Below, piece by piece: positions 3,940-18,761 of a DNA stretch of 24,092 nt. The stretch comes from a virus. Positions within the stretch are counted from its first letter, which is position 1; each line of letters opens with the position of its first letter. The stretch is from IMG/VR virus record IMGVR_UViG_3300047359_000188, positions 1 to 24,092 of that record; one strand, given 5' to 3'. The notes beneath the pieces are model-generated. The model had not been told where the DNA came from. It was given only the letters and a program-made list of their open reading frames with translations, and searched no databases. Made by a program: the position numbers and the translations under genes.

Positions 3940-4770
3940 ATGAGTGATATTACATTAATTGATGATAGCGAGCAGTCTTCGCTAGTAACTAATGGACTCG
4001 TCAAGAATGGCGAACTCTATTTAAAGAAAGCAGGGAGTACCAGTGCTGGTGCTATTGTTGCTTATGATAACGGAGTGTGGAGAACGTTTGCTAATGAAGC
4101 TGGTGGTGGTTTTAGTAATGCCTACAGTGTAGAATTTGACGGCAGTAACGAATATGTCGATATAGGTGATTTAACAGCCCTTAATAGTGCTTCGACTTTT
4201 TCCATGTCAATGTGGTGGAAAACACCTAGTAGTTCTGAGAAAATAATGGTAGGTGACTCTGCCCCAGATGCAACAGGGATCGGGATGTATCAGTGGAGTA
4301 CTGGAGTCTTTTACGTACACGCTGGTGCTAGTAATGTTTTTTCATCTGGCATAACTGTACCTGGTTACAACCAATGGAACTTTGTGTTGGTTACTTACAA
4401 CTCGTCAGGAAGTGTTAAAGCTTATTTTAATGGAAACACAACCCCTGCAGCTTCGGTATCCGCTACCGCATTAAGCTCTTCAGCTGGAGATGGTTTTAGA
4501 ATTGGAAAGTACGAAGGTTATCCTTCTGCTTATAGTGAGGGACTCATTGATGAGGTTGCTATTTTTAGTAGCGAACTTAGTAGCTCAGACTCTGAAACAC
4601 TTTGGAACAGCGGAGTACCTGCGGATATATCTTCTCTTAGTCCTCTAGGACATTGGAGAATGGGAGATAATGACTCAGGAACAGGTACTACTGTAACAGA
4701 TCAAGGTAGCGGAAGTAATGACGGTACTCTTATAAATGGTCCTACCTTCTCTTCAGACGTTCCTTCTTAA
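3940..4770 (+). CDS. LamG/concanavalin-like domain tail protein (copy 1)
   Basis: 276 aa. Residues 1-55 are a short beta-module (GAIVAYDNGVWRTF). Residues ~59-213 show LamG-fold marks: FSNAYSVEFDGSNEYV, FSMSMWWKT, WNFVLVTYNSSGSVKAYFNG and the closing LIDEVAIFSSELSS. The C-terminus repeats a pattern shared with copy 2 (SSLSPLGHWRMGD, PTFSSDVPS). LamG folds bind glycans or proteins in many systems, so this is a good candidate for the receptor-contacting part of the virion. The gene is directly followed by a 78-aa partner, and the same pair recurs at 5025-6097. No active-site residues for a glycosidase were recognised. Confidence 0.75.
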   Translation: MSDITLIDDSEQSSLVTNGLVKNGELYLKKAGSTSAGAIVAYDNGVWRTFANEAGGGFSNAYSVEFDGSNEYVDIGDLTALNSASTFSMSMWWKTPSSSEKIMVGDSAPDATGIGMYQWSTGVFYVHAGASNVFSSGITVPGYNQWNFVLVTYNSSGSVKAYFNGNTTPAASVSATALSSSAGDGFRIGKYEGYPSAYSEGLIDEVAIFSSELSSSDSETLWNSGVPADISSLSPLGHWRMGDNDSGTGTTVTDQGSGSNDGTLINGPTFSSDVPS

Positions 4771-4784
4771 TAAACTTAATAACT

Positions 4785-5021
4785 ATGAACGATAGACAAT
4801 ACGTAATTCTAACTAGTGAAGAAGTATCTTCCGTCAACTTTGACGATGTACTTGAAACTTCAGTAGACACACTAAGATACAATGTAGCGGGGGATGAAAC
4901 CTTTGTTAAATATGCAGGTGCTAAACCTCGTTGCTTGTACGGTAAAGACACTCTCAGCCACTCAGCTATGCTTACGGTATTAGCAGACGAAGCTTGGACA
5001 CAACCTATGGAGGAAGAATAA
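4785..5021 (+). CDS. Small LamG-partner protein (copy 1)
   Basis: 78 aa, no recognised domain. It is paralogous to the 76-aa protein at 5867: a hand alignment gives about 49 identities over 76 positions, including TLRYNVAGD, TFVKY, GKDT.SH and a WT.PMEE tail. Each copy follows a LamG gene by 5-14 nt, so the pair behaves as a unit. By analogy with fibre genes paired with small assembly factors it may be a folding or attachment partner, but it could also be a virion subunit. Confidence 0.65.
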   Translation: MNDRQYVILTSEEVSSVNFDDVLETSVDTLRYNVAGDETFVKYAGAKPRCLYGKDTLSHSAMLTVLADEAWTQPMEEE

Positions 5022-5024
5022 GAC

Positions 5025-5861
5025 ATGGCTAAATTAAATACAGTCACATCAGGAACCCGTCCTGCGTCGCCAGCTGCTGGTGAAACGTACTTTGAGACGG
5101 ACACTAATAAAGTTATCATTTGGGACGGTTCTGCTTGGACGGAGCTTGCTTCGGATAGTGGAGGAGCAGCTTTTAGTAATGCCTACAGCTTAGAATTTGA
5201 TGGTACTAACGAAGCTTTGCATGGTCCACTAGATAGTAACAACGCGCCTATCGCTTCTTCTCAAATTACACTAGGAAGCGGTGACGCTTGGACTATAAGT
5301 TTTTGGTACAAGAATGACAATGTAAGTATTAATGATACTAGCTTATTTAACGGTGCAGGAAGTGATTATTTTAGATTTAATGTTAACGCATCAGGTCACG
5401 CGAACATCATGGTTTATGATGGGAGTATGCGCGTAAGGACGGGAAACCAGCCAACAATCGATTTGAGAAATTGGACGCACGTGGCATACACGCATGACGG
5501 ATCAGGACTTCACAAAATGTATGTCAATGGGTCGCTGCCTGTTTTTGCTGGATATGGTGATGGAACTGCCACTTATACAGGTGATTTTCAAACTTACGGT
5601 TGGATTTACGGAAGAGCAAGCACCGCAACACCTGATGCTTATTTGGATGAGGTGGCATTTTTTGCTTCTGATTTAAGTTCAAGTATTTCCACGCTCTACA
5701 ACGGTGGAGTAGCAGGAGATCTAAGTTCTCTTAATCCTACTTATTGGTATCGTATGGAAGAAGGAAGTGGATCATCTGTAGCAAATAGTGGTTCTGTGGG
5801 TTCAGGTGCTGATCTTGCAACATCAAACAGTCCAACCTTCTCAACTGACATACCATCTTAA
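5025..5861 (+). CDS. LamG/concanavalin-like domain tail protein (copy 2)
   Basis: 278 aa. Residues 1-46 hold a clear copy of the short module (GETYFETDTNKVIIWDGSAW), better preserved than in copy 1. Residues ~50-216 are LamG-like: FSNAYSLEFDGTNEA, WTISFWYKND, NWTHVAYTHDGSGLHKMYVNG and YLDEVAFFASDLSS. The C-terminus (SSLNPTYWYRMEEGSG, PTFSTDIPS) matches copy 1. The central LamG sequence has diverged strongly while both edges are conserved, as expected if the middle faces the receptor. GGAGGA lies 10 nt upstream of the ATG. Confidence 0.75.
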   Translation: MAKLNTVTSGTRPASPAAGETYFETDTNKVIIWDGSAWTELASDSGGAAFSNAYSLEFDGTNEALHGPLDSNNAPIASSQITLGSGDAWTISFWYKNDNVSINDTSLFNGAGSDYFRFNVNASGHANIMVYDGSMRVRTGNQPTIDLRNWTHVAYTHDGSGLHKMYVNGSLPVFAGYGDGTATYTGDFQTYGWIYGRASTATPDAYLDEVAFFASDLSSSISTLYNGGVAGDLSSLNPTYWYRMEEGSGSSVANSGSVGSGADLATSNSPTFSTDIPS

Positions 5862-5866
5862 TAATC

Positions 5867-6097
5867 ATGAGAAACTACGTAATCATCGACGCTTCGGAAG
5901 TTCCTTCTGTTGACTTTAATAACGTCCTTGAAACCTCAGCATCTACCCTTCGGTATAATGTTGCAGGTGATAAGACATTCGTAAAGTATGAAGGAGCTAT
6001 GCCACCTTTTCTATTAGGCAAAGACACTTATAGCCACGCTCAAATCCTTGAGGTTTTAGCAGGTGAAGAGTGGACTGCCCCGATGGAAGAACTTTAA
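5867..6097 (+). CDS. Small LamG-partner protein (copy 2)
   Basis: 76 aa, paralogue of the protein at 4785 (about 64% identity by hand alignment). It starts 5 nt after the second LamG gene. Conserved blocks are VLETS, TLRYNVAGD, TFVKY and PMEE; the middle (GAMPPFLLGKDTYSHAQ) differs most. No membrane segment, signal or catalytic motif is seen. The role is inferred from the repeated pairing only. Confidence 0.65.
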   Translation: MRNYVIIDASEVPSVDFNNVLETSASTLRYNVAGDKTFVKYEGAMPPFLLGKDTYSHAQILEVLAGEEWTAPMEEL

Positions 6098-6133: not shown

Positions 6134-7315
6134 ATGCCAGATACATCATCTATATTCTATCAAATCGGTCAATCGACCAAGAGTGCTATTGCAGTAGAAG
6201 AAACACGTGCGTTAGCTGCCGAAGCTACACTTCAGTCGAATATCGACTCCGAAGCTTCCAGTCGTGCAAGTGCTGATACTACCCTGCAATCTAACATCAC
6301 TGCTGAGGCTTCAAGCCGAGCATCTGCTGACAGTACCTTACAAGGTAACATCGACTCAGAAGCAAGCAGCAGAACATCCGCTGACTCCGCTATCCAATCC
6401 GAACTTGACGCTACTCAAAGTGGTGCTGGTCTAGGTGTTGGTGGTTCGTACTCAGCTAATGCTTCTACTAACTACATTACTTCTGTAAGTACGTTGGTTG
6501 GTGCTGATGAAGCTCTTGACGGACAGATCAAAACTAACGCTGACGCTATCTCTTCTGAAGCAAGTACTCGTGCATCTGCCGATACAACTCTTCAGTCGAA
6601 CATTACTAGTGAAGCTTCTTCTCGTGCTAGTGCTGACACAACTCTCCAAAGCAACATTGATGCTGAAGAGACTGCCCGTCAAGCTGCTGACTCGACCCTT
6701 CAAACAAACATAAGTGACGAGGCAACTGCTAGAGCTTCCGCTGATACGACTTTACAGTCCAATATCGACGCTGAAGAAACTGCACGTATTGCTGCTGTTA
6801 GTGGTGAAGCTACTGCTAGAGCATCTGCCGACACGACTCTTCAATCGAATATCGATTCCGAAGCTTCGACTCGTGCTTCTGCTGTTTCCAATCTTGATAC
6901 CATCAAAGCTAACCTTAGTGGTGCTTCCTTCACAGGAGACGTAAGTGGAACCAATCTTGTACTTAGCGGTAACTTAACCGTTCAAGGCACGACTACTTCC
7001 CTTGAAACCACCAACTCCCAAGTTAAAGATGCTATCATGCTTCTCAATGACGGAGCTGGTTCAGGTGCTAACAACGGTAACGACGCTGGGTTTATCATTG
7101 AGCGTGGTTCTTCCGACGACGGAAACATCGCTGCTGTATACGACGAAGGTGAAGACAAGTTTGCTTTCTACAAAACTTCAGCTGGTGCTACTTCTACTGA
7201 CATCAGTGGAGACGACGGAAGTGCTTCTTTGATCGACGTTAAAGCTAACGACGTTGTTCTTGGAGACGGAAACAATCTTGGATCATTGGCTGACTTTACA
7301 GCTGCAATGGCCTAA
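6134..7315 (+). CDS. Tail fibre shaft protein with 18-residue helical repeats
   Basis: 393 aa. Residues 1-20 (SSIFYQIGQSTKSAIA) resemble the docking motif of neighbouring fibre proteins. Residues ~23-92 and ~139-258 contain about nine copies of an 18-residue repeat of the type EASSRASADTTLQSNI plus two residues, separated by a non-repeat insert (93-138). Residues ~262-393 form a beta-rich head with GNLTVQGTTTSLETTNSQVKD and GFIIERGSSDDGN, a C-terminal type common in cyanophage and other marine phage fibre proteins. The protein probably trimerises through the helical shaft. It ends the fibre island. No SD is seen; a 10-bp palindrome (6114-6123) lies upstream. Confidence 0.8.
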   Translation: MPDTSSIFYQIGQSTKSAIAVEETRALAAEATLQSNIDSEASSRASADTTLQSNITAEASSRASADSTLQGNIDSEASSRTSADSAIQSELDATQSGAGLGVGGSYSANASTNYITSVSTLVGADEALDGQIKTNADAISSEASTRASADTTLQSNITSEASSRASADTTLQSNIDAEETARQAADSTLQTNISDEATARASADTTLQSNIDAEETARIAAVSGEATARASADTTLQSNIDSEASTRASAVSNLDTIKANLSGASFTGDVSGTNLVLSGNLTVQGTTTSLETTNSQVKDAIMLLNDGAGSGANNGNDAGFIIERGSSDDGNIAAVYDEGEDKFAFYKTSAGATSTDISGDDGSASLIDVKANDVVLGDGNNLGSLADFTAAMA

Positions 7316-7854: not shown

Positions 7855-9543
7855 ATGAAGAAACACCAAGAGATACCTGAGAGTCTTAAAGACTTCCGTA
7901 ACTTCCTATACATCGTATGGAAACATCTTAACCTTCCTGATCCTACTGAATTACAGTACGACATAGCTGACTATATGCAGCACGGTCCTAAGCGGTCGTT
8001 AATCATGGCGTTTCGTGGAGTAGGTAAGTCCTGGGTTTGTAGTGCATATGTAGTACATCAACTCCTACTTAACCCTAGTAAGAACATACTTGTTGTATCT
8101 GCTAGCAAGAATCGTGCCGATGACTTCTCTACTTTCACTCTACGGATCATCCAGGAGATACCTATACTTCATCACCTTAAACCTACAGAGAACCAACGAT
8201 TCAGTAAGATAGCTTTTGACGTCGGACCCAGTCCTGCCTCTCACGCTCCCTCTGTTAAATCTCTAGGTATCTCCTCACAGTTAACAGGTAGTCGTGCTGA
8301 CATCATCGTTGCTGACGACGTAGAAGTACCTAACAACTCTGCTACTCAAGGTATGCGGGATAAGCTGGATGAACAAGTAAAAGAGTTCGAAGCTATCCTT
8401 AAACCCTTAGACACCTCTCGTATCCTTTTCCTCGGTACTCCTCAATGTGAAGACTCTATATACAACAAGCTACGAGACAGAGGCTACAACGCCCGTATAT
8501 GGCCTTCTGAGTATCCGAATGAGATAGAAGTCGATACGAACTACGGAGGCGATCTAGCACCTCTCCTGAGTAATAACATAGATGAAGACACTGTGGGTAC
8601 AACTACAGAACCTACTCGCTTCACTAATATGGACCTAGAGGAACGTAAGATGTCATACGGTCGTACTGGGTACGCTCTACAGTTCATGCTTAATCCTAAG
8701 CTCTCTGATGCTGATAGATACCCTTTGAAGATTAACGACCTTATCATATTAGATGTAGATGTTGATACGGCTCCTGAGAAGGTGCTGTGGTCCTCTGATA
8801 ACGATCTAGCTGATAAGACACTGCCTAATGTAGGTTTGAGTGGTGACCGCTTTAAACGACCCTTTAAGACGATCGGTGATAACGTACCTTACAGTGGTTC
8901 TGTTCTTTCGATTGACCCGTCAGGTAGAGGTAAGGATGAAACAGGGTACGCTGTTGTCAAGATGCTTAACGGTCAACTGTTCGTTCCTGATTGTGGTGGT
9001 CTTAAAGGTGGATACGATGAAGTAACTCTTAAACGCCTGGTCGCTATCGCTAAGGATAACAAAGTTAACAGAGTAGTTATAGAGTCTAACTTTGGTGACG
9101 GTATGTTTATGGAACTGATTAAACCTCTGTTTCGTACTTCTTACCCTTGCTCTATAGAAGAAGTAAGACATAACAAACAGAAGGAGCTTAGAATCGTAGA
9201 CACCTTAGAACCTGTGTTAAACAGTCATAGACTTATCTTTGATCCTTCTTGTGTTACTAACGACTATAAGAGTGCTCTTAGCTACCCTATAGAACAACAG
9301 ACTAAATATATGCTGTTCTATCAGTTAACAAGGATAACAAGAGATAGAGGTAGCTTGGCTCATGATGACCGTCTTGACGCTCTATCAATCGCTGTTGGTT
9401 ATTGGGTACAGCAGATGGCTGCTGACGTTAACCAAAACATAGTTGATAGGAAACAAGAACTGTTACAACAAGAGTTAACAAAGTTTACTGACTCCTTCTA
9501 TAAGAAATCTAACAAAGCTGATAGAGCTTTACTTTGGAGTTAA
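7855..9543 (+). CDS. terL: Terminase large subunit (T7 gp19-like)
   Basis: 562 aa; T7 gp19 is 586. It is the ATP-driven motor and nuclease that cuts concatemers and pumps DNA through the portal. N-terminal ATPase: Walker A at 51-59 (MAFRGVGKS), Walker B at 149-157 (DIIVADDVE) and coupling motif LFLGTP at 191-196. C-terminal RNase H-like nuclease: acidic motifs at 352-362 (SIDPSGRGKDE), 407-416 (VVIESNFGDG) and 503-510 (HDDRLDAL). The motif spacing matches the T7 family and no key residue is missing. It ends the late transcription unit, and a gene-poor region follows. Confidence 0.97.
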   Translation: MKKHQEIPESLKDFRNFLYIVWKHLNLPDPTELQYDIADYMQHGPKRSLIMAFRGVGKSWVCSAYVVHQLLLNPSKNILVVSASKNRADDFSTFTLRIIQEIPILHHLKPTENQRFSKIAFDVGPSPASHAPSVKSLGISSQLTGSRADIIVADDVEVPNNSATQGMRDKLDEQVKEFEAILKPLDTSRILFLGTPQCEDSIYNKLRDRGYNARIWPSEYPNEIEVDTNYGGDLAPLLSNNIDEDTVGTTTEPTRFTNMDLEERKMSYGRTGYALQFMLNPKLSDADRYPLKINDLIILDVDVDTAPEKVLWSSDNDLADKTLPNVGLSGDRFKRPFKTIGDNVPYSGSVLSIDPSGRGKDETGYAVVKMLNGQLFVPDCGGLKGGYDEVTLKRLVAIAKDNKVNRVVIESNFGDGMFMELIKPLFRTSYPCSIEEVRHNKQKELRIVDTLEPVLNSHRLIFDPSCVTNDYKSALSYPIEQQTKYMLFYQLTRITRDRGSLAHDDRLDALSIAVGYWVQQMAADVNQNIVDRKQELLQQELTKFTDSFYKKSNKADRALLWS

Positions 9544-10025
9544 TATAACAACTCTGCTTACTTATCTATACTACTACTACTATATTGTAAGGTGTTTTCT
9601 TACTTAGTGTAGATACAGTTATAAGTTATCTATACAGCTGACGTCAAAACTGCTACTCCTCCTCTTGGTTTATATATGTGTAAACACATCTCCCCTTTTT
9701 AAAAGCTTTGTTTAAAGAACGTTATAACTTTAGTTTTCGAAAGAACGAAGTATGAGAAAGCTACAACAACTTTTGAGTAGGAGTAGTTTAAAGCGTCTAC
9801 TACTTACTACTGTTAATATTATTATGTGTGTTATTCGTCTAAAGCGAAGTCTAACTAGGCGTTAGGGCCATTATAGCATTTATGAACCATTACAGGTTTG
9901 TTGTAAAGCCTAAAGTCCTAAGTAGCTGTTTGTTAGTAAGTTATAACATGGGACATTTTGTCACACCTGATTTAAAGCAAGAGTCTTTACTTGTTAAACA
10001 TCTTTAGGTAGAGTAGTAAGCAAGT
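9544..10025. other. Gene-poor region after TerL; candidate genome-end/early control region
   Basis: About 480 bp with no convincing gene larger than a 37-aa ORF. It is rich in TACTACT-like strings. It contains a 6-bp inverted repeat with a 2-nt centre (ATGTGT/ACACAT, 9676-9689), a separated inverted repeat (CTACTCCTCCTC 9653-9664 and GAGTAGGAGTAG 9775-9786, 11 of 12 paired), a short hairpin (CTAAC/GTTAG, 9851-9865) and TAAGTAGCTG at 9919-9928. In T7 relatives the terminal repeat and early promoters lie between gene 19 and the first early gene, so this is the expected place for them. No clear sigma-70 promoter was found. Confidence 0.5.
9752..9865 (+). CDS. Possible 37-aa basic/hydrophobic peptide
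   Basis: An ATG-to-TAG frame encoding MRKLQQLLSRSSLKRLLLTT followed by VNIIMCVIRLKRSLTRR. It is Arg/Lys-rich with a hydrophobic centre (residues 16-30), which could form a membrane-associated helix. There is no SD, and it covers part of the inverted-repeat structure, so it may be a chance frame. Reported only because the region is otherwise empty. Confidence 0.25.
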   Translation: MRKLQQLLSRSSLKRLLLTTVNIIMCVIRLKRSLTRR

Positions 10026-10241
10026 ATGAATAACAACGACCAAACAGACTCTTTTATGTTCGACTTAGATAATCTGATCAGGAGATACCAGCAGGAGTTC
10101 GAGCTTAACGACCAGACAATAGTAGGCTCGTTGGAGTTCGCTAAGCTGACCGTTTTGACTGATTCTAACATACTGTTTACCGAGGATGACCTGGACGATT
10201 TTAAGGACGAACCAGGAGACTTTATCAGTCCTAACTTCTAA
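10026..10241 (+). CDS. Acidic 71-aa early protein of unknown function
   Basis: 71 aa with 17 Asp/Glu against four Lys/Arg (net about -13). Acidity is concentrated in residues 53-66 (EDDLDDFKDEPGDF). It is isolated between two gene-poor stretches and is the first convincing gene after the large terminase, the position of T7's first early genes. Small acidic early phage proteins often target host enzymes, and some imitate DNA (T7 Ocr, 117 aa), but no sequence match was recognised. A 6-bp hairpin (GCTTGG/TCAAGC, 10244-10259) follows the stop without a T-run. Confidence 0.65.
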   Translation: MNNNDQTDSFMFDLDNLIRRYQQEFELNDQTIVGSLEFAKLTVLTDSNILFTEDDLDDFKDEPGDFISPNF

Positions 10242-10907
10242 AAGCTTGGTATATCAAGCAGCAAGTTACGTTTAAGATTAGTCGAAAAAATCTGAAAGGC
10301 TTACGCTATATACGCGAACTTTAATTTACCCCTTGGGTACCCTAAGTTTTTTTGTAGGGTAGGGGATCACTTTGTTAGATATTTATAGCTCTACTATTGA
10401 TCTATGCTACTAATCAGATTGCACGGTTCCATAAGTAGCTGATAATCAACAAAACTGAGTTCGTCAAATATGTATTATGTCTAATCGCTTAAGGCTTTTA
10501 GAAGGTAAGCATGATTCGTGCCAGACTTTCTAGTATTGTTATCAGTAGCTTAATAGTTTGATTGGGTTTCAATGTTTCATATCATTCTATCATGATGCGT
10601 TGATATGTATTTTTGATATTTCGAGCCGTCATCACCTTTCACCACATTTGGAAGTCTCACGATCTTAACCGCTTAAACACTGAGCTTTTACTTTCAATAC
10701 TTTCATAAATCACTACTACTGCCAGACTTACAACAATATCGTTCGCTTAAAATCGTTTTGCTTACAATTATCTAAAACTTTTTTGAATATTTCTATTCTT
10801 TGTTAATCAGCTACTTACAACACAATTAAAAAGTTTTTATTTACAAGCTTATTAAATTATGGCTTAAAGAAAATCATATTTATTTTAACTTATAACCAAC
10901 ACACATC
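10242..10907. other. Gene-poor early leader region (~670 bp)
   Basis: No credible gene on either strand; short frames are under 20 codons. AT-rich. It holds a bulged hairpin at 10329-10365, TAAGTAGCTGAT (10432-10443) with its exact reverse complement at 10806-10817, GCCAGACTT twice (10520-10528, 10721-10729) and CGCTTAA three times between about 10484 and 10752. Weak sigma-70-like boxes occur (TTGATT 10558-10563 and TATCAT 10580-10585, 16-nt spacing). It is probably a regulatory leader for the early operon starting at 10908. It could also hold an untranslated RNA, for which I see no diagnostic structure. Confidence 0.5.
10329..10365. other. Bulged hairpin in the early leader
   Basis: CCCC (10329-10332) pairs with GGGG (10362-10365). 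A five-base one-sided bulge (TTGGG) separates this from TACCCTA (10338-10344) pairing with TAGGGTA (10355-10361), with a 10-nt T-rich loop. No T-run follows on either strand, so it is not a standard terminator. A processing, packaging or protein-binding site is possible. Confidence 0.5.
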
Positions 10908-11072
10908 ATGAAAATCCTAGAAACAATTACATTGCAACAAGCTTTAGAATGGCAAGACACAGACGAAAGGGTCTGCTACATATGCGACACTTTTGACATT
11001 TATGCTCACATGACAAACACGATTGAATTAATCGAATCTTATATGGCGCATTTACTTTCATTCGAATCTTAA
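10908..11072 (+). CDS. 54-aa hypothetical early protein
   Basis: Begins with ATG after a CCAACACACATC leader, the same kind of AC-rich leader found before the next two genes. Protein MKILETITLQQALEWQDTDE... has a CYIC pair (residues 23-26) and a helical C-terminus (TIELIESYMAHLLSF). No family was recognised. Continuity with the following operon and the similar start context support it as a real gene. Confidence 0.55.
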   Translation: MKILETITLQQALEWQDTDERVCYICDTFDIYAHMTNTIELIESYMAHLLSFES

Positions 11073-11096
11073 TCAACACTACAACCCACACACACT

Positions 11097-11729
11097 ATGA
11101 AAATAAAACACGCTAAAGAAATAACAGGAGGGCTTAGTAATCCTTCAAAGATGCCTAGTAAAGCTTATTCTATACCTGCGAGCCGTTGTCATGTGGGTAG
11201 TAAGCTTGCAAAGGTTAAAGGCTCAGTATGCGAAGGATGTTACGCATTAAAAGGTATGTATCGTTTCGGCAACGTGCAAGATGCTTTAGAAAAGCGTTTT
11301 CAATCTTTAGGCAATACTGCGTGGGTCAATTCAATGGCTTTATTAATAAGCAAGCAGTCTAAAGACTTTTTTAGGTGGCATGATTCAGGAGACATTCAAA
11401 GTGTAAACCATCTTAAAAAGATTGTTGATGTTTGCAAGCTTACTCCTGACACAAAACACTGGTTACCTACTAGAGAATATAAGATAGTAGAAGATTATAT
11501 TAATCAACACGGCTCTATACCTTCGAACCTTATTGTTAGGTTATCGGCTCACAAGGTCAACTTTCCTGCACCTACTAAATTAGCTAAAAGATTAGGAGTA
11601 CAAACGTCATCCGTTACCACCTCAAAGGATACCTTCACTTGCAAAGCTCCTAATCAAGAAAACGCTTGCAAAGATTGTAGGTTATGTTGGAACTCTAAAG
11701 TTTCAAATGTCTCTTATCTCAAACACTAA
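11097..11729 (+). CDS. GP88-like phage protein with conserved cysteines
   Basis: 210 aa. The segment FFRWHDSGDIQSVNHL (91-106), the early CxxCYALKG (45-53) and the C-terminal CKDCRLCW (191-198) recall the phage 'gene product 88' family of unknown function. Cysteines at 31, 45, 48, 113, 182, 191, 194 and 197 suggest a metal or Fe-S site formed by both ends of the chain. WLPTREY (122-128) and IVRLSAH (146-152) look like core strands of an alpha/beta fold. It is the largest gene of the early block. The start follows ACCCACACACACT without an SD. Function unknown; an enzyme is plausible. Confidence 0.65.
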   Translation: MKIKHAKEITGGLSNPSKMPSKAYSIPASRCHVGSKLAKVKGSVCEGCYALKGMYRFGNVQDALEKRFQSLGNTAWVNSMALLISKQSKDFFRWHDSGDIQSVNHLKKIVDVCKLTPDTKHWLPTREYKIVEDYINQHGSIPSNLIVRLSAHKVNFPAPTKLAKRLGVQTSSVTTSKDTFTCKAPNQENACKDCRLCWNSKVSNVSYLKH

Positions 11730-11742
11730 TACAAATACACAC

Positions 11743-11916
11743 ATGAAAAACTCAATCGACAAATCCTTATTAAAGTTTGCAAAGGCTCAAAGCGAGCCCC
11801 AACCATTCGAACCTACAAACAAGAAACAATTAGCACTTGTCATTCTTCTAAGCCCTCTTATCGCATTAGGTGGATGGGTATTCTTATTAATCCTATGCAT
11901 GAAAGAGGGCAACTAA
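11743..11916 (+). CDS. 57-aa single-pass membrane protein
   Basis: The start at 11743 (ATGAAAAACTC after an AATACACAC leader) is preferred over an in-frame ATG at 11707 that lies inside the preceding gene. Residues 1-29 are charged and Pro-rich; residues 30-52 (LALVILLSPLIALGGWVFLL) are a clear membrane helix with a short KEGN tail. Early phage membrane peptides can alter the host envelope or block superinfection, but no homologue was recognised. Confidence 0.6.
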   Translation: MKNSIDKSLLKFAKAQSEPQPFEPTNKKQLALVILLSPLIALGGWVFLLILCMKEGN

Positions 11917-11917
11917 G

Positions 11918-12106
11918 ATGACTGACACAAAAGAGAACCAGGAGCACATACAGGCTTTAGAAACTAACCTTTACAATTTGTTAAGGCACTTGCAACAAGT
12001 CAAAGACGATAGGAAAAACGGATGGCAAGCCGAAGTATGTTTACATGAAACTAACCTTTATTTAGGCAAAGCTTTAGAAGCCTATCAAGAAATATACGAC
12101 CGATGA
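11918..12106 (+). CDS. 62-aa hypothetical helical protein
   Basis: Starts 1 nt after the preceding stop and overlaps the next start by 4 nt (ATGA). Composition (NQEHIQALETNLYNLLRHLQ, KALEAYQEIYDR) suggests two amphipathic helices around a polar loop. TNLY occurs twice (residues 16-19 and 45-48). No family was recognised. Tight packing in the early operon supports it. Confidence 0.55.
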   Translation: MTDTKENQEHIQALETNLYNLLRHLQQVKDDRKNGWQAEVCLHETNLYLGKALEAYQEIYDR

Positions 12107-12249
12107 ATAAAATACTACTACTCACAACTTTATTGTTAACTGCCAGTTGCAACTCTTACAAGCTAAGCGATCATGCTATAGACACTTGCCCGTCCGATGA
12201 AGGCTTTTCTTGTCCGATTGACGGAAGCCCTTGTCCATTTTGCAGATGA
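12103..12249 (+). CDS. 48-aa Cys/Pro-rich small lipoprotein
   Basis: Starts at the ATGA overlap with the upstream stop. Residues 1-15 are a short signal peptide (KILLLTTLLLTAS) followed by Cys16, a lipobox-like site (T-A-S-C, with an unusual Thr at -3). The mature part is 33 aa with four more cysteines (29, 37, 44, 47), three of them followed by Pro in the series TCPSDEGFSCPIDGSPCPFC. It would sit in the outer or inner membrane. Candidate roles are superinfection exclusion (as with T5 Llp), an o-spanin-like function or metal binding; none can be chosen. The next gene starts inside its stop (ATGA). Confidence 0.6.
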   Translation: MNKILLLTTLLLTASCNSYKLSDHAIDTCPSDEGFSCPIDGSPCPFCR

Positions 12250-12461
12250 CAGCACCTAAACCTAAAACCTGCATCACGTGTGGCCTAGAGCTACGGGGGC
12301 ACGATATAGAAGGCGATTACTGCCTTACCTGTCTCCAAGCTTTAACTCCACACGTTAGCTTTGATGGTGGATATTATAGTCCGCAAGCCCTCATAAAAAT
12401 GGGCAAGATTAAACAAACCCTAAATGACAATAACCTAAACAAGAAAGATAAAGAATCATGA
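12246..12461 (+). CDS. 71-aa zinc-ribbon protein
   Basis: The ATG at 12246 forms an ATGA overlap with the lipoprotein stop, so it is preferred over an upstream TTG. Cys9-x2-Cys12 and Cys26-x2-Cys29, 13 residues apart, make a typical zinc knuckle. After that comes HVSFDGGYYSPQALIKMG and a Lys-rich tail. A nucleic-acid or protein-binding adaptor is likely; the specific function is unknown. Its stop again overlaps the next start by four bases. Confidence 0.6.
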   Translation: MTAPKPKTCITCGLELRGHDIEGDYCLTCLQALTPHVSFDGGYYSPQALIKMGKIKQTLNDNNLNKKDKES

Positions 12462-12535
12462 GCATGATAAGTTTCCTGTCGCTAGTTATGCTGGCAATAA
12501 TATTAATCAGTATTTTATATTCAGATGACTGTTGA
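12458..12535 (+). CDS. 25-aa single-helix membrane peptide
   Basis: The ATG lies in an ATGA overlap with the zinc-ribbon stop. The peptide MSMISFLSLVMLAIILISIL plus YSDDC is one hydrophobic helix with a short acidic end. The end overlaps the next gene by 11 nt. Its position in a chain of coupled genes argues that it is translated. Function unknown; it could be an envelope modulator. Confidence 0.5.
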   Translation: MSMISFLSLVMLAIILISILYSDDC

Positions 12536-12725
12536 AATACTTAAACCTAAACACATGATAGAGGAGTTAATGTTTTATATACACCAGGAGGAAATGGGAG
12601 GTGAGTGTCTTGATCCTGATAACCGATTTTTCCCATTGTATTTAGAGTTGCAGAAACTCTTAGATAAGTTAAACAACAACGATGAGAAACCTTACGTGTC
12701 CGTGAAAAATGATGAAAGCAACTGA
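12525..12725 (+). CDS. 66-aa hypothetical early protein
   Basis: Overlaps the membrane peptide by 11 nt. The protein (MTVEILKPKHMIEELMFYIH...) has an amphipathic helix near the start, a GGECLDPDNRFFPLYLELQK block and a polar Lys/Asn/Glu tail. No domain was recognised. The base composition is AT-rich like the rest of this block. Confidence 0.5.
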   Translation: MTVEILKPKHMIEELMFYIHQEEMGGECLDPDNRFFPLYLELQKLLDKLNNNDEKPYVSVKNDESN

Positions 12726-12960
12726 AATTAATACTAATAATATAAACCAAATAGAAAGCGGTGAAATAAACGGTTACGATGTTTACATACATAAAATGTT
12801 TGATGATTTATGGACGCTTCAAATAGTAGGCCCAGCTCCTGAGTTTGAAAACTTTGAGTTGGATTGTGAGAGCTTCAACGAAGCATTAGAAAATTATAAC
12901 ATTGAAGTAAATTACTTGAGACAAAACGCCAAACTTAGACCTTGTTGGTTAGACTATTAA
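12712..12960 (+). CDS. 82-aa hypothetical early protein
   Basis: Two adjacent ATGs (12709 and 12712); the second is used here and either may serve. Residues ~15-60 read as alternating strands (INGYDVYIHKMFDDLWTLQI), then an acidic helix (FENFELDCESFNEALENY) and the tail RPCWLDY. The shape suggests a small alpha/beta domain. No family was recognised. A sample line here is about 27% GC by hand count. Confidence 0.5.
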   Translation: MKATEINTNNINQIESGEINGYDVYIHKMFDDLWTLQIVGPAPEFENFELDCESFNEALENYNIEVNYLRQNAKLRPCWLDY

Positions 12961-12967
12961 TAACACC

Positions 12968-13486
12968 ATGAGAAACTATCAGGAAAATAAACAAATGAAT
13001 CCATTAGAGCACATATTAAAATTCCTTCAAACAAAGAAGGCAGAGCTTGTGTTGCAAGAGCAAAGTGATCAGTTTTTATTTGAACTTAACCAGACATTAA
13101 CTGAGAGAGACGAACTTGAGACACCTATTACAAACACGGTACAAGAGAAAGGCGCAAGTGCGTATCAACAAGTAACTAACTTATTAAACTTTTTAAAAGA
13201 GTTAGAGTGGGATGACTTCCATTGTGAGCTTAAAGACACGCGTATTACTATCGATAGATCACGCAAAGGACATAACATCGAAGGCAATTATCAGTCAGGT
13301 TTTGAGTTATGCATTATTGATTACGATGGTAAACAAAGAGAGTACGTGGGTAAAGCTTACTATCAGCTCGGATTGAGCGAAGATGGCATTGAGTGCGAGA
13401 GTGTATACCCAAAGATTGATTTGATAGATGCTGATAAAAAGAGAGAAAAGAAAGAGTTTTACAAAAAGGAAGGAAGGTTTAATTAA
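12968..13486 (+). CDS. 172-aa hypothetical early protein
   Basis: Residues 10-85 are largely helical (PLEHILKFLQTKKAELVLQE, AYQQVTNLLNFLKEL). Residues ~86-150 look beta-rich (FHCELKDTRITIDRS, FELCIIDYDGKQREYVGKAY). The C-terminus is highly charged (DADKKREKKEFYKKEG). An alternative start at Met10 (12995) is possible. No recognised family; the second largest gene of the early block. Confidence 0.55.
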   Translation: MRNYQENKQMNPLEHILKFLQTKKAELVLQEQSDQFLFELNQTLTERDELETPITNTVQEKGASAYQQVTNLLNFLKELEWDDFHCELKDTRITIDRSRKGHNIEGNYQSGFELCIIDYDGKQREYVGKAYYQLGLSEDGIECESVYPKIDLIDADKKREKKEFYKKEGRFN

Positions 13487-13487
13487 G

Positions 13488-13646
13488 ATGAGAAACTGTA
13501 ACTACGATAGCTGGCTTACTTCTTTCCTTGACTATGAGGATGATGATGAATTTAATCCCGAAGACTTTACTGAAGAAGAGATCGAAGCGAGGCGAGAAGA
13601 AGCTTTGATTGAGCAGTACGAACGAAACAAACAAACAAACGACTGA
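13488..13646 (+). CDS. 52-aa acidic hypothetical protein
   Basis: The start at 13488 follows the preceding stop, with a purine-rich AAGGAAGG stretch ~12 nt upstream; a longer frame from 13428 would lie inside the previous gene. The protein contains YEDDDEFNPEDFTEEEIEAR and is strongly acidic and helical. Function unknown. Confidence 0.5.
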   Translation: MRNCNYDSWLTSFLDYEDDDEFNPEDFTEEEIEARREEALIEQYERNKQTND

Positions 13647-13650
13647 AGAG

Positions 13651-13872
13651 ATGGACGAAGACGAAGACGAGGACGGACGCGAGCTTACACAGAGAGAAGC
13701 TGAAACGATCATGCAAATGGTCACTGATGGATGCGAATTATTCTGGGCTAACACCGAGTTGAAGTACGATAAACACTTAAACATAGTCAGAAGCGACATT
13801 CCGCGTGTCCGTCCTCGTGTGTGGTTTAATCATATGCCGATCAGAGTTAAGAAAGATAAAGATGCCCAGTAA
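13651..13872 (+). CDS. 73-aa hypothetical protein just before RNA polymerase
   Basis: The ATG at 13651 lies 4 nt after the previous stop and is preferred over an upstream TTG within that gene. An acidic start (MDEDEDEDGRELTQ) is followed by a helix (REAETIMQMVTDGCELFW) and an Arg/Pro-rich end (DIPRVRPRVWFNHMPIRVKK). The end overlaps the RNA polymerase start by 11 nt, so the two may be co-translated. No family was recognised. Confidence 0.5.
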   Translation: MDEDEDEDGRELTQREAETIMQMVTDGCELFWANTELKYDKHLNIVRSDIPRVRPRVWFNHMPIRVKKDKDAQ

Positions 13873-16177
13873 AGCTGAGAACGAGATGAAGGAGTGGGGC
13901 AAGGCAACTTACCGCCAGTTCCAACAGCTTTATAAGGAAGCGGAGAGAGCAAGTGAGTTGGAAAGCTCTAAGCGTATCCTTGGTAAGCTTGCACCTGAGT
14001 TAGCAACACCTATTCAAGACTTCTTTGGAAGGTTTGCCACTGAAGATAGCCCGTCTATGCCTTTATGGTTGTGCTATATCGCAGACTTTCACCCTCAAAT
14101 GGTAGCACATATTGGATTGAAGACTTTGTTAGATCGGATGTACGCACCTGACCGACACTTCACTGCTCTTTCTCTTGAAATAGGTAAAGCATTTGAACAG
14201 ATAGCACGGCAGAAAGTAGCTGAAGAGACTGTACCTAAGAATAAGATGCACGGTATCAAGCATAAGAAGAGCAGACAATCTAAGTTCCGTAGGTTCTATA
14301 AAGTAGAGAAGAATAACCGACGGTTTAAAGTGTGGGATAAACGGCACAAAGTATCGTTGGGTGCTTGGTTGTTGGGAGAGATACAGAAACATACAGGCTT
14401 GATTGAATTTAGAATCGAACGGATAGGTAAGAAGAAGCGTAAAGATGTAGTGCTCACTAAAGAGTTTACTGATTGGGTACGACGCTTTGATTCGTGGCGC
14501 GAGATGTTAGACCCTATGCGAATGGCTTTACCTGAAAAACCTAGAGATTGGGTAGACTTTTACACAGGTGGATACGAAACCTTTAACGACTGCTTTGTAA
14601 TGAACCGTGTGAACGGTAGTAACTACGAGTTCGCCAGCATGAAGAACATTTACGCGGCCGTGAACAACATTCAAAGAGTACCTTGGAAGATCAACAAGAA
14701 GATACTGGATGTAGCACAGAAGTGTTGGGATTTGGAGCGTGTGTTTGAGTTTCACGAAGTGCCTATGCAACCGTACCTTGAAGGTGGACACGAGAAGCCT
14801 GAAGAGTTGAGGATTTGGAAGGCTAAGCAAGATAAGATCAGGCGAATGAACGAAGCGAGACGTAGCAAAAGGCTACAACACGCCAAGGTCATGCACTTAG
14901 CTAAGAAGTATAGTGAATGGGATGATGTTTACTTTCCTACTCGTGTAGATTACAGAGGTCGTGTGTATTATATGCCAGCTTATCTGCATCCACAAGGCTC
15001 TGACTTAGCTAGAGGTTTGTTACAGTTTGGAAGAGGTGAGCAAGTAGTAGATGAAGATGACTTAGAGCGTGTGTTAATACACGGTGCTAATGCTTACGGA
15101 GTAAAGGGTAGTTTAGACGAACGGTTAGCGTGGATAGAAAGTCGTAAGCAGGAGATACTGGAGTGTGCTGAGGACTCAATGACTAACGATTGGTGGACGG
15201 AAGCGAGTGAACCGTTTGGGTTTCTTGCTTTTTGTTTTGAGTACCAACAGTTCACAGAAGAAGGATACGGATACACCTCACACTTTCCTGTACGTATGGA
15301 CTGCAGTAATAACGGTATGCAAATATTGCACTTGCTACTCAGAGATACAACACACGCCAAGCACTGCAACCTAGTACCTGACCAACCTGTCGGAGATATG
15401 TACCAGCACGTAGCTGATCTTGTTTACGAACGATTGAAAGAACAAGCTAGTGAAAGCTACATAGCAAGTGAGTGGTTAAAGTACGGAGTGACTAGAGCTA
15501 TGGCGAAGGCTGCTGTTATGAACAAACCGTACGGTCAAGGATTCTTTCCTGTGTTGGGTAGGTTCTTATCTATAATCGGAGACAATCATCCGTTTGAAGA
15601 TGGAGAACAGATTGACGGTATCAATTACTTAGCCAGACAGTTTAACGAGGTAGCACGTGATGAGTTAGACAGTGTTGACCGAGTAAGACGGTTCCTTAGA
15701 CCGTGCACTACAGCAGTAGGTAATGAGATGTTAAGGTGGACTACACCGTCAGGCTTTAAAGTAGTACAAGGATTAACAAAGACTAAGCGTATCCAATGTC
15801 GTACAATTGTAGGTAACATAGAGACTAAGATTGAATACCAAGGACCGACTGATCAGATTGATCCGAAGCAACAACGAAAGAGTATCACTGCTAACTTTAT
15901 CCACGGATTGGATGCTTCTATTGTTCATCGTTTAGCGTACGATATGGCGTACGACATGGGCTTTGTTCACGACTGCTTTATCAGTCACGCTTCCAACGCA
16001 CGAAAAGTACACCAAGATGTACGAAACACATACAAGACTTTCTTTTCTGTTGACTTACTAGCCGAGTTCAGATGTGAGTTACAGAATCAATACCCGACAG
16101 CAAAGTTGCCTGACCTGCCTGAACTTGGGACACTAGATGTCTCGCAAATAGATCGAGCAATGTACCTGCTGTCTTAA
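13862..16177 (+). CDS. T7-type single-subunit DNA-directed RNA polymerase
   Basis: 771 aa from the ATG at 13862; a longer frame from a GTG at 13805 lies in the previous gene and lacks support. T7 gp1 is 883 aa, so the N-terminal domain is shorter. Landmarks: DYRGRVYYMPAYLHPQGSDL (363-382); catalytic motif A with Asp480 (RMDCSNNGMQ, T7 Asp537); motif B RAMAKAAVMNKPYGQ (545-559; Lys549 and Tyr557 match T7 Lys631 and Tyr639); ANFIHGLDAS (677-686); motif C HDCF (703-706; Asp704 = T7 Asp812). Motif A departs from T7's DGSCSG, and the C-terminus (MYLLS) differs from T7's FAFA. It would transcribe middle and late genes. Confidence 0.96.
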   Translation: MPSKAENEMKEWGKATYRQFQQLYKEAERASELESSKRILGKLAPELATPIQDFFGRFATEDSPSMPLWLCYIADFHPQMVAHIGLKTLLDRMYAPDRHFTALSLEIGKAFEQIARQKVAEETVPKNKMHGIKHKKSRQSKFRRFYKVEKNNRRFKVWDKRHKVSLGAWLLGEIQKHTGLIEFRIERIGKKKRKDVVLTKEFTDWVRRFDSWREMLDPMRMALPEKPRDWVDFYTGGYETFNDCFVMNRVNGSNYEFASMKNIYAAVNNIQRVPWKINKKILDVAQKCWDLERVFEFHEVPMQPYLEGGHEKPEELRIWKAKQDKIRRMNEARRSKRLQHAKVMHLAKKYSEWDDVYFPTRVDYRGRVYYMPAYLHPQGSDLARGLLQFGRGEQVVDEDDLERVLIHGANAYGVKGSLDERLAWIESRKQEILECAEDSMTNDWWTEASEPFGFLAFCFEYQQFTEEGYGYTSHFPVRMDCSNNGMQILHLLLRDTTHAKHCNLVPDQPVGDMYQHVADLVYERLKEQASESYIASEWLKYGVTRAMAKAAVMNKPYGQGFFPVLGRFLSIIGDNHPFEDGEQIDGINYLARQFNEVARDELDSVDRVRRFLRPCTTAVGNEMLRWTTPSGFKVVQGLTKTKRIQCRTIVGNIETKIEYQGPTDQIDPKQQRKSITANFIHGLDASIVHRLAYDMAYDMGFVHDCFISHASNARKVHQDVRNTYKTFFSVDLLAEFRCELQNQYPTAKLPDLPELGTLDVSQIDRAMYLLS

Positions 16178-16205: not shown

Positions 16206-16841
16206 ATGAGTATACAAGCAAGAAAGAAACACGACATAATAAAGTTAAGTGGGATCGGAAAGTTCTGCTTTCTTAACAAGCCTAGCAAAAAGTTCAAGCC
16301 TGAGTTTGGGGAGTACATATGCGACACCGTTGTAAGTGAGGAGGTAGCGGAAAAAGTTAAAGCACAGCTTCGCCCTGTTTATGAGCAAGAACTAAAAGCT
16401 AGAACAGACCTTGAAGGTAAGGAACTAAAAAAAGCTGAGTTACCCTTCGTTGAAAGTGAAGACGGAACTCTTATTAAGACTAAGCTTAAAGGTGGTCACC
16501 GCACTAAAGAAGGCAAGGTATACGAATTTAACGTAGCTTTGTTCGATGCATCCTGTAACCCTTTACCTAAAGACGTACAAGTATGGGGTGGAAGTAAAGT
16601 CAATGTAGCTGTACGACCTAACTTTTGGTACACAGCTTCTCTTGGTTTTGGTGTCACGTTTGAGATACAAGCAGTACAAGTTGTTGAGTTAGCTAACGGT
16701 GGAGTGAGTAGCGTTGCCGCTGAAGCTTTCGGACTTACCAGTGAAGAAGGATACGTAGCAAATGGCGGTGAAACCCTTGACCAAGTATTCGATGCCGAAG
16801 AGACAAGCGAAGAAGAAGAGACCGTCAAAGCGAACTTCTAA
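16206..16841 (+). CDS. Single-stranded DNA-binding protein (T7 gp2.5-like)
   Basis: 211 aa; T7 gp2.5 is 232. It shares GGGSK-like WGGSKVNVAVRPNFWY (127-142), LGFGVTFEIQAVQVVELANG and GYVANGGE with gp2.5, then an acidic tail (DAEETSEEEETVKANF) ending in Phe, the feature through which gp2.5 contacts polymerase and helicase. The N-terminal half is the OB-fold region. It sits between RNA polymerase and endonuclease I as in T7. Its 3' 80 nt overlap the endonuclease frame if that gene starts at 16762. A purine-rich GAGAG precedes the ATG. Confidence 0.92.
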   Translation: MSIQARKKHDIIKLSGIGKFCFLNKPSKKFKPEFGEYICDTVVSEEVAEKVKAQLRPVYEQELKARTDLEGKELKKAELPFVESEDGTLIKTKLKGGHRTKEGKVYEFNVALFDASCNPLPKDVQVWGGSKVNVAVRPNFWYTASLGFGVTFEIQAVQVVELANGGVSSVAAEAFGLTSEEGYVANGGETLDQVFDAEETSEEEETVKANF

Positions 16842-17307
16842 TTATCGTTCTGGATTCGAAGCTAAACTAGCAAATCAATTACAGCGTAGTGGTGTTGAGT
16901 TTCAATACGAGACATTACAACTTGAGTATAAAAAAGTATCGACTTACACTCCTGACTTCATACTCCCCAACGGCATCATCATTGAAGCCAAGGGGTTATG
17001 GGTCACGGAGGACAGGACAAAACATCTGTTAGTCCGCGAGCAACATCCACACCTAGATATAAGAATGGTGTTCATGAATGCAGGTAACAAGATACGAAAG
17101 GGAAGCTCAACATCCTACGCTAGTTGGTGCGAAAAGAAAGGAATTAAATATGCAAACAAAGTTATACCTAAATCATGGCTATCATCCAAGCACATCAACC
17201 CTGTGACAAGTGTGGGTCAAGTGACGCAAGAGCCTTCAACGATGACGGAAGCTCCTATTGTTTCAGTTGCCAAGATCATAGTGGACGAAGTGGAGGACAA
17301 CGTATGA
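16762..17307 (+). CDS. Endonuclease I (T7 gp3-like Holliday-junction resolvase)
   Basis: 181 aa; T7 gp3 is 149. It resolves branched DNA and helps degrade host DNA. YRSGFEAKLANQL, YTPDFILPNGIIIEAKGLW, KHLLVREQHPHLDIR and SYASWCEKKGIKYA follow T7 closely. Active-site equivalents: Glu33 (T7 E20), Asp65 (D55), Glu75 (E65) and Lys77 (K67). T7 E35 aligns with Gln48, with Glu50 nearby. The start at 16762 has AGAAGG 11 nt upstream; Met11 (16792) is an alternative. The last ~40 residues exceed T7 and lie entirely over the next gene in another frame; the stop overlaps an internal helicase start as ATGA. Confidence 0.95.
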   Translation: MAVKPLTKYSMPKRQAKKKRPSKRTSNYRSGFEAKLANQLQRSGVEFQYETLQLEYKKVSTYTPDFILPNGIIIEAKGLWVTEDRTKHLLVREQHPHLDIRMVFMNAGNKIRKGSSTSYASWCEKKGIKYANKVIPKSWLSSKHINPVTSVGQVTQEPSTMTEAPIVSVAKIIVDEVEDNV

Positions 17308-18761
17308 CTACACCTACACCAACAAGTTTTATCAGTGGAGAACCACAAGCTATAGCACGTCGAAACTTAACAGAAGAAACGTGTCGGAAGTGGGGATACT
17401 GGGTAGGTAAAGACCAAGGCGAGTGGGTACAGATAGCTAACTATAAGACACGAGACGGTAAACCTGTCGGTCAGAAGATCAGGCGAGCCGATAAGAAGTT
17501 CGCAGTGAAGGGTGAGCTGATGGGCTTGTACGGTCAGCACCTGTGGAGAGACGGAGGTCGTCGAGTGGTTGTAACTGAAGGAGAGATCGATGCACTCAGT
17601 GTCAGTCAAGCTATGGATAACAAGTGGCCTGTAGTATCTGTGCCTAATGGTGCAGGAGCTGCAAAAAAATATGTAGCACAAGCTATCGATTGGTTAGAAC
17701 GGTACGAGAAAGTAGTCTTCTGTTTTGATATGGATGATGTCGGAAGAAAAGGGGCAGCTGAATGTGCAGCACTCCTCACTCCTGGCAAGGGATACATAGC
17801 AGAACTACCACTCAAGGATCCAAATGATATGTTGACCAGCGGTAAGTCGAAGGACTTGATCAGTTGTTTATATGATGCAAGAGAGTATCGACCTGACGGA
17901 ATAGTAAACGGTAAAGAGTTGTGGGATTTAGTGAGCAATCGCGACGAACACAAAGCAGTACCGTATCCTTACTTCAGCTTAAACGAGTTAACCCACGGCA
18001 TGAGACTAGGAGAATTAGTTACGGTATGCGCGGGCAGTGGAATAGGAAAGTCTCTGTTCTGCCGTGAGATAGCTCATCATCTACTGGGTCTTGGCGAGAC
18101 GGTAGGTTATATAGCGTTGGAGGAATCCGTCAGGCGTACTTGTCTTGGTATCATGGGCATTCATTTGAACAAACCGTTACACTTAGAAGAGGATGAGGTA
18201 GAACAAGAAGCTTTGTTACCTGCATTTGAAGAGACGGTAGGTAACGGTAAGTTCTATACCTACGACCACTTCGGATCGATGGATAGTGACAACCTACTGA
18301 GTAAGATTAGATACTTGATTAAAGGATTCGATTGTAAGTGGATATTCTTAGATCATCTATCGATTGTAATCAGTGGTATCCAAGGAGACGACGAACGACG
18401 GTTAATTGATAACACCATGACTAAACTTAGAAGTCTAGTTGAAGAGACAGGATGTGGAATGATATTAGTATCACATCTAAAGCGAGTAGACAATGGTCAC
18501 GAAGAAGGAGGACGAGTAAGTCTTCACCATCTACGGGGCAGTCAAGCAATCGCACAGCTAAGTGACATGGTAATTGGATTGGAGCGTAACCAACAAGCAG
18601 GTACAACAAGTAATGAGACTCGTGTTCGTGTGTTGAAGAATAGATTCAGCGGACAGACAGGACATTGTACTACTCTTGGTTATGACCACGACACAGGACG
18701 ATACAAGGAGGACACTAATGTGTTCGAAGATACAACAGCAACAACTAACAACCCATTCTAA
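17175..18761 (+). CDS. Primase-helicase (T7 gp4-like)
   Basis: 528 aa; T7 gp4A is 566. Zinc-binding domain: Cys10, Cys13, Cys29 and Cys32, for template-site recognition. TOPRIM primase: VVVTEGEIDALS (131-142) and CFDMDDVGRKG (183-193). RecA-like hexameric helicase: Walker A CAGSGIGKS (285-293), Walker B IFLDHLS (390-396), a LVSHL sensor (431-435) and an RVRVLKNRFSG arginine region. It primes and unwinds at the fork with the polymerase. The first 44 codons overlap endonuclease I out of frame. A second start at Met44 with a strong SD could give a helicase lacking the zinc domain, like T7 gp4B. No SD precedes the first ATG. Confidence 0.97.
   Translation: MAIIQAHQPCDKCGSSDARAFNDDGSSYCFSCQDHSGRSGGQRMTTPTPTSFISGEPQAIARRNLTEETCRKWGYWVGKDQGEWVQIANYKTRDGKPVGQKIRRADKKFAVKGELMGLYGQHLWRDGGRRVVVTEGEIDALSVSQAMDNKWPVVSVPNGAGAAKKYVAQAIDWLERYEKVVFCFDMDDVGRKGAAECAALLTPGKGYIAELPLKDPNDMLTSGKSKDLISCLYDAREYRPDGIVNGKELWDLVSNRDEHKAVPYPYFSLNELTHGMRLGELVTVCAGSGIGKSLFCREIAHHLLGLGETVGYIALEESVRRTCLGIMGIHLNKPLHLEEDEVEQEALLPAFEETVGNGKFYTYDHFGSMDSDNLLSKIRYLIKGFDCKWIFLDHLSIVISGIQGDDERRLIDNTMTKLRSLVEETGCGMILVSHLKRVDNGHEEGGRVSLHHLRGSQAIAQLSDMVIGLERNQQAGTTSNETRVRVLKNRFSGQTGHCTTLGYDHDTGRYKEDTNVFEDTTATTNNPF
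17292..17306 (+). promoter_or_regulatory. Ribosome-binding site and internal start for a helicase-only (4B-like) product
   Basis: GGAGG at 17292-17296 lies 7 nt before ATG 17304-17306, which is in frame with the primase-helicase at codon 44, right after the zinc-binding domain. The ATG overlaps the endonuclease I stop (ATGA). In T7 the same gene makes a shorter 4B form from an internal Met after the zinc domain. This is one of the best SD sequences in the window. Confidence 0.65.

Follow-up and report, generated by a model that had tools for sequence, protein, structure and literature searches.

Organization of the endonuclease I and primase-helicase genes

The window, that is, the whole stretch of 24,092 nucleotides analysed here, is a virus record with T7-like genes, which encode RNA polymerase, SSB, endonuclease I, primase-helicase, methylase, DNA polymerase A, exonuclease and terminase. 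On its plus strand, positions 16792..17307 encode a T7 gp3-like endonuclease I of 171 aa, the start at 16792 being picked by alignment with relatives. The product is matched by PF05367 at E=2.9e-52 in Pfam, and its residues 18-132 align to structure 1m0d, which places the homology to the endonuclease I (Holliday-junction resolvase) core. This core extends to W129-L130 and is followed by a tail of 41 residues that lies in an overlap with the next gene. Because homology to the T7 endonuclease I stops at residue 132, the overprinted part of the protein is an extension without a counterpart in T7.

The next gene (17175..18761, plus strand) encodes a T7 gp4A-like primase-helicase of 528 aa, and its ATG is embedded in the endonuclease codons TCA-TGG. 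Pfam returned PF21268, PF13155 and PF03796 for it, and the four-cysteine zinc domain, the T7 N-terminal alpha+beta fold, Toprim and the DnaB-type helicase of a T7-type gp4 (4A) are all present; the alignment with the T7 gp4 structure 6n7i starts at residue 5, spans the zinc domain and extends beyond Met44. The initial annotation had described an out-of-frame overlap of the two genes, and this observation is confirmed: they share 133 nt (17175..17307, plus strand), with the endonuclease in the +1 frame of the primase. The primase zinc-binding domain (C10-x2-C13-x15-C29-x2-C32; 17202..17270, plus strand) lies entirely within the overlap, and all four zinc cysteines are covered, as had been claimed. 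It can also be seen that the helicase Met44, a 4B-like internal start, and the endonuclease TGA (17305-17307) share an ATGA at 17304..17307, and that a Shine-Dalgarno (SD)-like GGAGG in linker glycine codons, at 17292..17296, precedes the internal ATG by 7 nt (both on the plus strand). These features had been reported correctly, and so had the lack of an SD (at least 4 matches) ahead of the primase start at 17175. Thus, as in a T7-type 4A/4B gene, the zinc domain is followed by an internal start that is in frame and has an SD. In the alignment with T7 gp4, Met44 falls beside the 4B Met in 'SGGKPMT', which bears out that the two starts correspond in position.

Other features of the window were also recorded. 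The C-terminal end of the SSB gene (16206-16841) is overlapped by endonuclease I over 50 nt (16792-16841), so that SSB, endonuclease I and primase are three consecutive overlapping genes. The gene for the terminase large subunit lies upstream of that for the RNA polymerase (7855-16177), and the contig therefore appears to cross the genome-end junction of the T7-like map. A two-gene unit, a larger gene and then one for a 76-78 aa protein, is present in two copies at 3940-6097; the 76-78 aa proteins (4785-5021 and 5867-6097) have 'VLETSxxTLRYNVAGDxTFVKY' in common. At 6134-7315, a tail-region protein is built of repeated 'TLQSNIDSEASSRASADT' units, and these repeats give several out-of-frame ORFs.

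Conservation of the overlap and openness of the +1 frame

Eighty IMG/VR relatives were gathered by primase similarity, so that the overlap played no part in their choice. In every one of them (80/80) the endonuclease frame continues for 124-136 nt beyond the primase ATG, and the overlap is therefore conserved throughout the clade. With further loci, 93 unique long-overlap clade sequences were obtained. The primase M1 codon is ATG, without an SD, in 93/93, and its A is invariant even though it is the third codon position of the endonuclease frame. The phage collection yielded no isolate of the clade, all matches there being below 60% identity; the clade that carries the overlap is one of uncultured marine relatives of phage T7.

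A stop in the +1 frame requires an L, I, V or M codon followed by A or G. Such combinations are scarce in zinc domains, which are rich in C, G, S, D, N, H and T, so the +1 frame stays open; most T7-like zinc domains likewise have no stop in it. By synonymous re-coding, the probability that the +1 frame is free of stops over the zinc domain was 0.57 for the protein sequence of the window and 0.25-1.0 across clade representatives. An open frame is thus expected from the primase protein alone, and this codon-shuffle null rules out openness as a sign of selection. What is remarkable is not that the frame is open in one genome; it is the conservation, the retention of the SD and the synonymous constraint described below.

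Comparison with T7 and other phages

T7 had been held to make 4A and 4B from one gene without such overprinting, a contrast that fails. T7 gene 4.1, annotated at 11635-11757, overprints the 4A zinc domain in the same +1 frame (4A start 11565) and, as in the window, ends in ATGA at the internal start (4B, 11754); AGGAGGT lies upstream of it. The difference lies in the identity of the overprinting frame: in T7 it is a separate ORF of 40 codons, whereas in the window it is the endonuclease C-terminus. In addition, the T7 endonuclease I (gene 3) lies further upstream, with genes 3.5 and 3.8 between. Synonymous change in the zinc domain of the T7 group is above the gene average (1.5; T7 L088 2066-2258), so that gene 4.1 is without sign of protein-level constraint. 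A search for literature on T7 gene 4.1 or on an endonuclease/primase overlap gave nothing relevant.

The order SSB, endonuclease I, primase is shared by short-overlap marine T7-like phages (e.g. L233 and L251) and by Ayaqvirus S45C18. In L233 the primase ATG is embedded in IPxxW as in the window, whereas the endonuclease stop lies at primase codon 4. In S45C18 the order continues with methylase and polymerase, again as in the window, whereas the endonuclease stops before the primase. Desulfovibrio phage ProddE has a primase-helicase annotated with full-length and internal-start forms (6A/6B) directly after endonuclease I, but there the endonuclease stop lies 12 nt ahead of the primase start, without overlap. 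In the records of L421 (GU943054.1), Cyanophage NATL1A-7, P-SSP2 and P-SSP3 the primase is unannotated or hypothetical, and some were matched in two pieces, which suggests missed or frameshifted calls.

Overlap lengths and the origin of the overlap

At least 120 contigs were matched in a scan for the pattern ATACC......ATGG, in which the primase ATG is embedded. Among the matches listed, the endonuclease stop lies mostly at primase codons 4-9 and in some at codons 21-24; it is found at codons 41-47 in the window's clade and at codon 49 in L379. The endonuclease core ends at W-L, and outgroup endings read WLDE*, WLRE*, WLNE* and IPRSWFD*. In a primase tree (FastTree, zinc domain excluded), the long overlaps formed one clade of 11 cluster representatives (99% local support) plus L379. 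This clade groups with mid-length overlaps and adjoins short-overlap lineages. Overlap length takes two changes on the tree, and a single origin is also compatible with it. L233 reads ATACCACTAACATGGGTTTCATAAAAACACACC, in which the endonuclease TAA lies inside primase codon 4 (ATA-A) of MGFIKTHQPC. The codon at this site is ACA in 75/86 of the window's clade and ATC in the window itself; with ACA there is no endonuclease stop there (MAFTKTHQ, ACA-A, versus MGFIKTHQ, ATA-A).

The best explanation, and probably the correct one, is that a T7-type 4A/4B gene had its 5' end run into by the upstream endonuclease I after loss of the endonuclease stop. Gene compaction would have brought the primase ATG inside the codons of the last conserved residues of the endonuclease (Ser-Trp, tcATGg). 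The stop, then at primase codon 4-9 (e.g. ATA-A), would have been lost (ACA-A). As L/I/V/M codons before A or G are almost absent from the zinc domain, the frame would then have crossed it and reached its next +1 stop in the NTGA at which the helicase starts internally. Elongation of an upstream gene at its 3' end after stop loss is modelled as a general mechanism in PMC3887535. These sequences do not prove that short overlaps came before mid-length ones and these before long ones; the mid-length overlaps could derive from long ones.

The internal start and its SD

The endonuclease stop overlaps the internal start as NTGA (ATGA or GTGA) in 80 of the 93 clade sequences, which is the stop-start overlap expected of a translationally coupled pair, and 73 of those 80 sites have an SD by a lenient test (a match of at least 4 nt). 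The internal start codon is GTG in 34/93. At the endonuclease stop of the other 13/93 there is NTAA or ATAG, hence no start; a universal 4B-like start was rejected on this count, and the short form is not universal, although the stop is kept. The SD and internal start of the initial annotation are therefore conserved in most of the clade (NTGA with SD in 73/93), and not in these 13. Within the L055-L079 sublineage, most of the sequences without the start retain the GGA run and the stop. Being without NTG, L055, L057, L060-L063, L066 and L079 are probably unable to make the short helicase from that codon.

Linker glycine is encoded by GGA in 255/259 clade codons (98%), versus 43% in the rest of the gene; in other groups the linker value is 12-40%, and in the mid group 67%, from six codons only. 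In the endonuclease frame, GGA of a linker glycine reads GAN (Glu/Asp). The bias is in keeping with a preserved SD, but pure SD selection was not adopted as its cause, being inseparable from an acidic endonuclease end or from A-rich start regions.

Termination-reinitiation at NTGA is documented in PMC6728339. A ribosome that ends the endonuclease at ATGA beside GGAGG could reinitiate and yield a short, 4B-like helicase that lacks the zinc domain, while the full-length primase-helicase would initiate at 17175 without an SD, as most genes of the phage do. Endonuclease and helicase would in that case be coupled at ATGA. Alternatively, NTGA might merely reflect a general preference for A after the start codon, with endonuclease termination incidental and no coupling. 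NTGA occurs also at the 4B-position Met where the +1 frame is not a known gene (e.g. in cyanophages), and PMC5850271 describes a general enrichment of A at the fourth site of bacterial starts, attributed there to +1 frameshift error proofing; it may explain part of the pattern in the T7 group, where SD plus NTGA is found at the 4B position in 6/9 representatives and A follows internal Met codons in 25/142 cases in the representatives' genes. However, in the 13 clade sequences that lost the start, the stop stays put as NTAA or ATAG, suggesting that the stop itself is retained. We regard the incidental reading as tenable but somewhat doubtful.

Synonymous constraint and the endonuclease tail

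A check of synonymous constraint over the overlap had been proposed. Synonymous codon changes at conserved primase residues were counted by parsimony on the clade tree, the expected counts were taken from same-residue columns downstream, and p-values were obtained by column resampling. Over primase codons 3-32 there were 105 changes versus 151 expected (ratio 0.70, p=0.006). In sub-ranges picked after inspection of the data, codons 3-13 showed no reduction (53 versus 55 expected, p=0.49), and codons 14-32 had 52 changes versus 97 expected (p=0.0012), with a ratio of 0.48 in this second half. Control ratios were 1.01 for short-overlap phages, 1.10 for cyanophages and 1.5 for the T7 group. Therefore, the constraint is specific to the long-overlap clade, and within it does not extend to codons 3-13. 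It is concentrated at primase codons 14, 22, 24, 25 and 26; codons 22-26 encode NDDGS (17238..17252, plus strand). Codons 22, 24 and 26 have 0, 1 and 1 changes and codon 23 varies; the three are nearly fixed at AAC, GAC and AGC, by which endonuclease T150, T152 and A154 are retained. The invariant GCT at primase codon 2 follows from the fixed endonuclease W129 and L130.

The reduction in codons 14-32, missing from the controls, indicates that the endonuclease tail is not purely passive, and raises the alternative of selected overprinting, in which the tail over the zinc domain is functional (e.g. a T-x-T-x-A-x-x-V-S segment) and is itself what maintains the overlap. Against this, codons 3-13 are unconstrained and most tail residues vary freely. 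A conserved tail fold was rejected, since AlphaFold2 gave residues 137-171 a pLDDT below 50 (mean pLDDT 62.7, a modest overall confidence, from a shallow alignment of 14 sequences). The constraint is modest, and an RNA element could be its cause. Overprinting kept for the tail is thus a possibility we hold only tentatively, and the data give weak evidence of a later recruitment of a tail that arose by stop loss. A combined reading, that the tail from stop loss was recruited as a functional element and that translation of the endonuclease also sets the amount of zinc-less helicase through reinitiation, seems unlikely; if true, the doses of Holliday-junction nuclease, primase and helicase would be linked through reinitiation.

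Full-length and short products

The initial annotation had proposed the short helicase as the main, coupled product and the full-length primase as the minor one, and an SD is indeed present solely at the internal start. However, SD matches were seen at a minority of the start sites in the window, and the RNA polymerase, SSB and terminase starts are all without one. An SD-less primase start is therefore ordinary, the missing SD at 17175 says little, and SD absence was discarded as a mark of weak full-length expression. Moreover, the M1 ATG is kept throughout the clade, including its A at a third codon position of the endonuclease frame, while at the internal site GTG is frequent and some sequences have no start. 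Dominance of the short form is accordingly quite improbable. Fusion of endonuclease and primase by programmed -1 frameshifting, for which the primase frame is suitably placed at -1 relative to the endonuclease, is hardly credible and was ruled out: the primase has its own invariant ATG, and an in-frame slippery heptamer X XXY YYZ, looked for from 150 nt upstream to the end of the overlap, occurs in 0/93 clade sequences.

Implications

Taken together, the above results show the arrangement to be a conserved variant of T7 4A/4B/4.1, which most likely arose by stop loss. The T7 4.1/4B junction may then be one instance of a more general occurrence of stop-start overlaps at the edge of the zinc domain. 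The natural series of overlaps (about a dozen nt in the shortest, about 65-75 nt at mid length and about 130 nt in the longest) would illustrate how the loss of a stop can give rise to a long overlap on the same strand, when the amino acid composition of a zinc finger leaves the second frame without stops.
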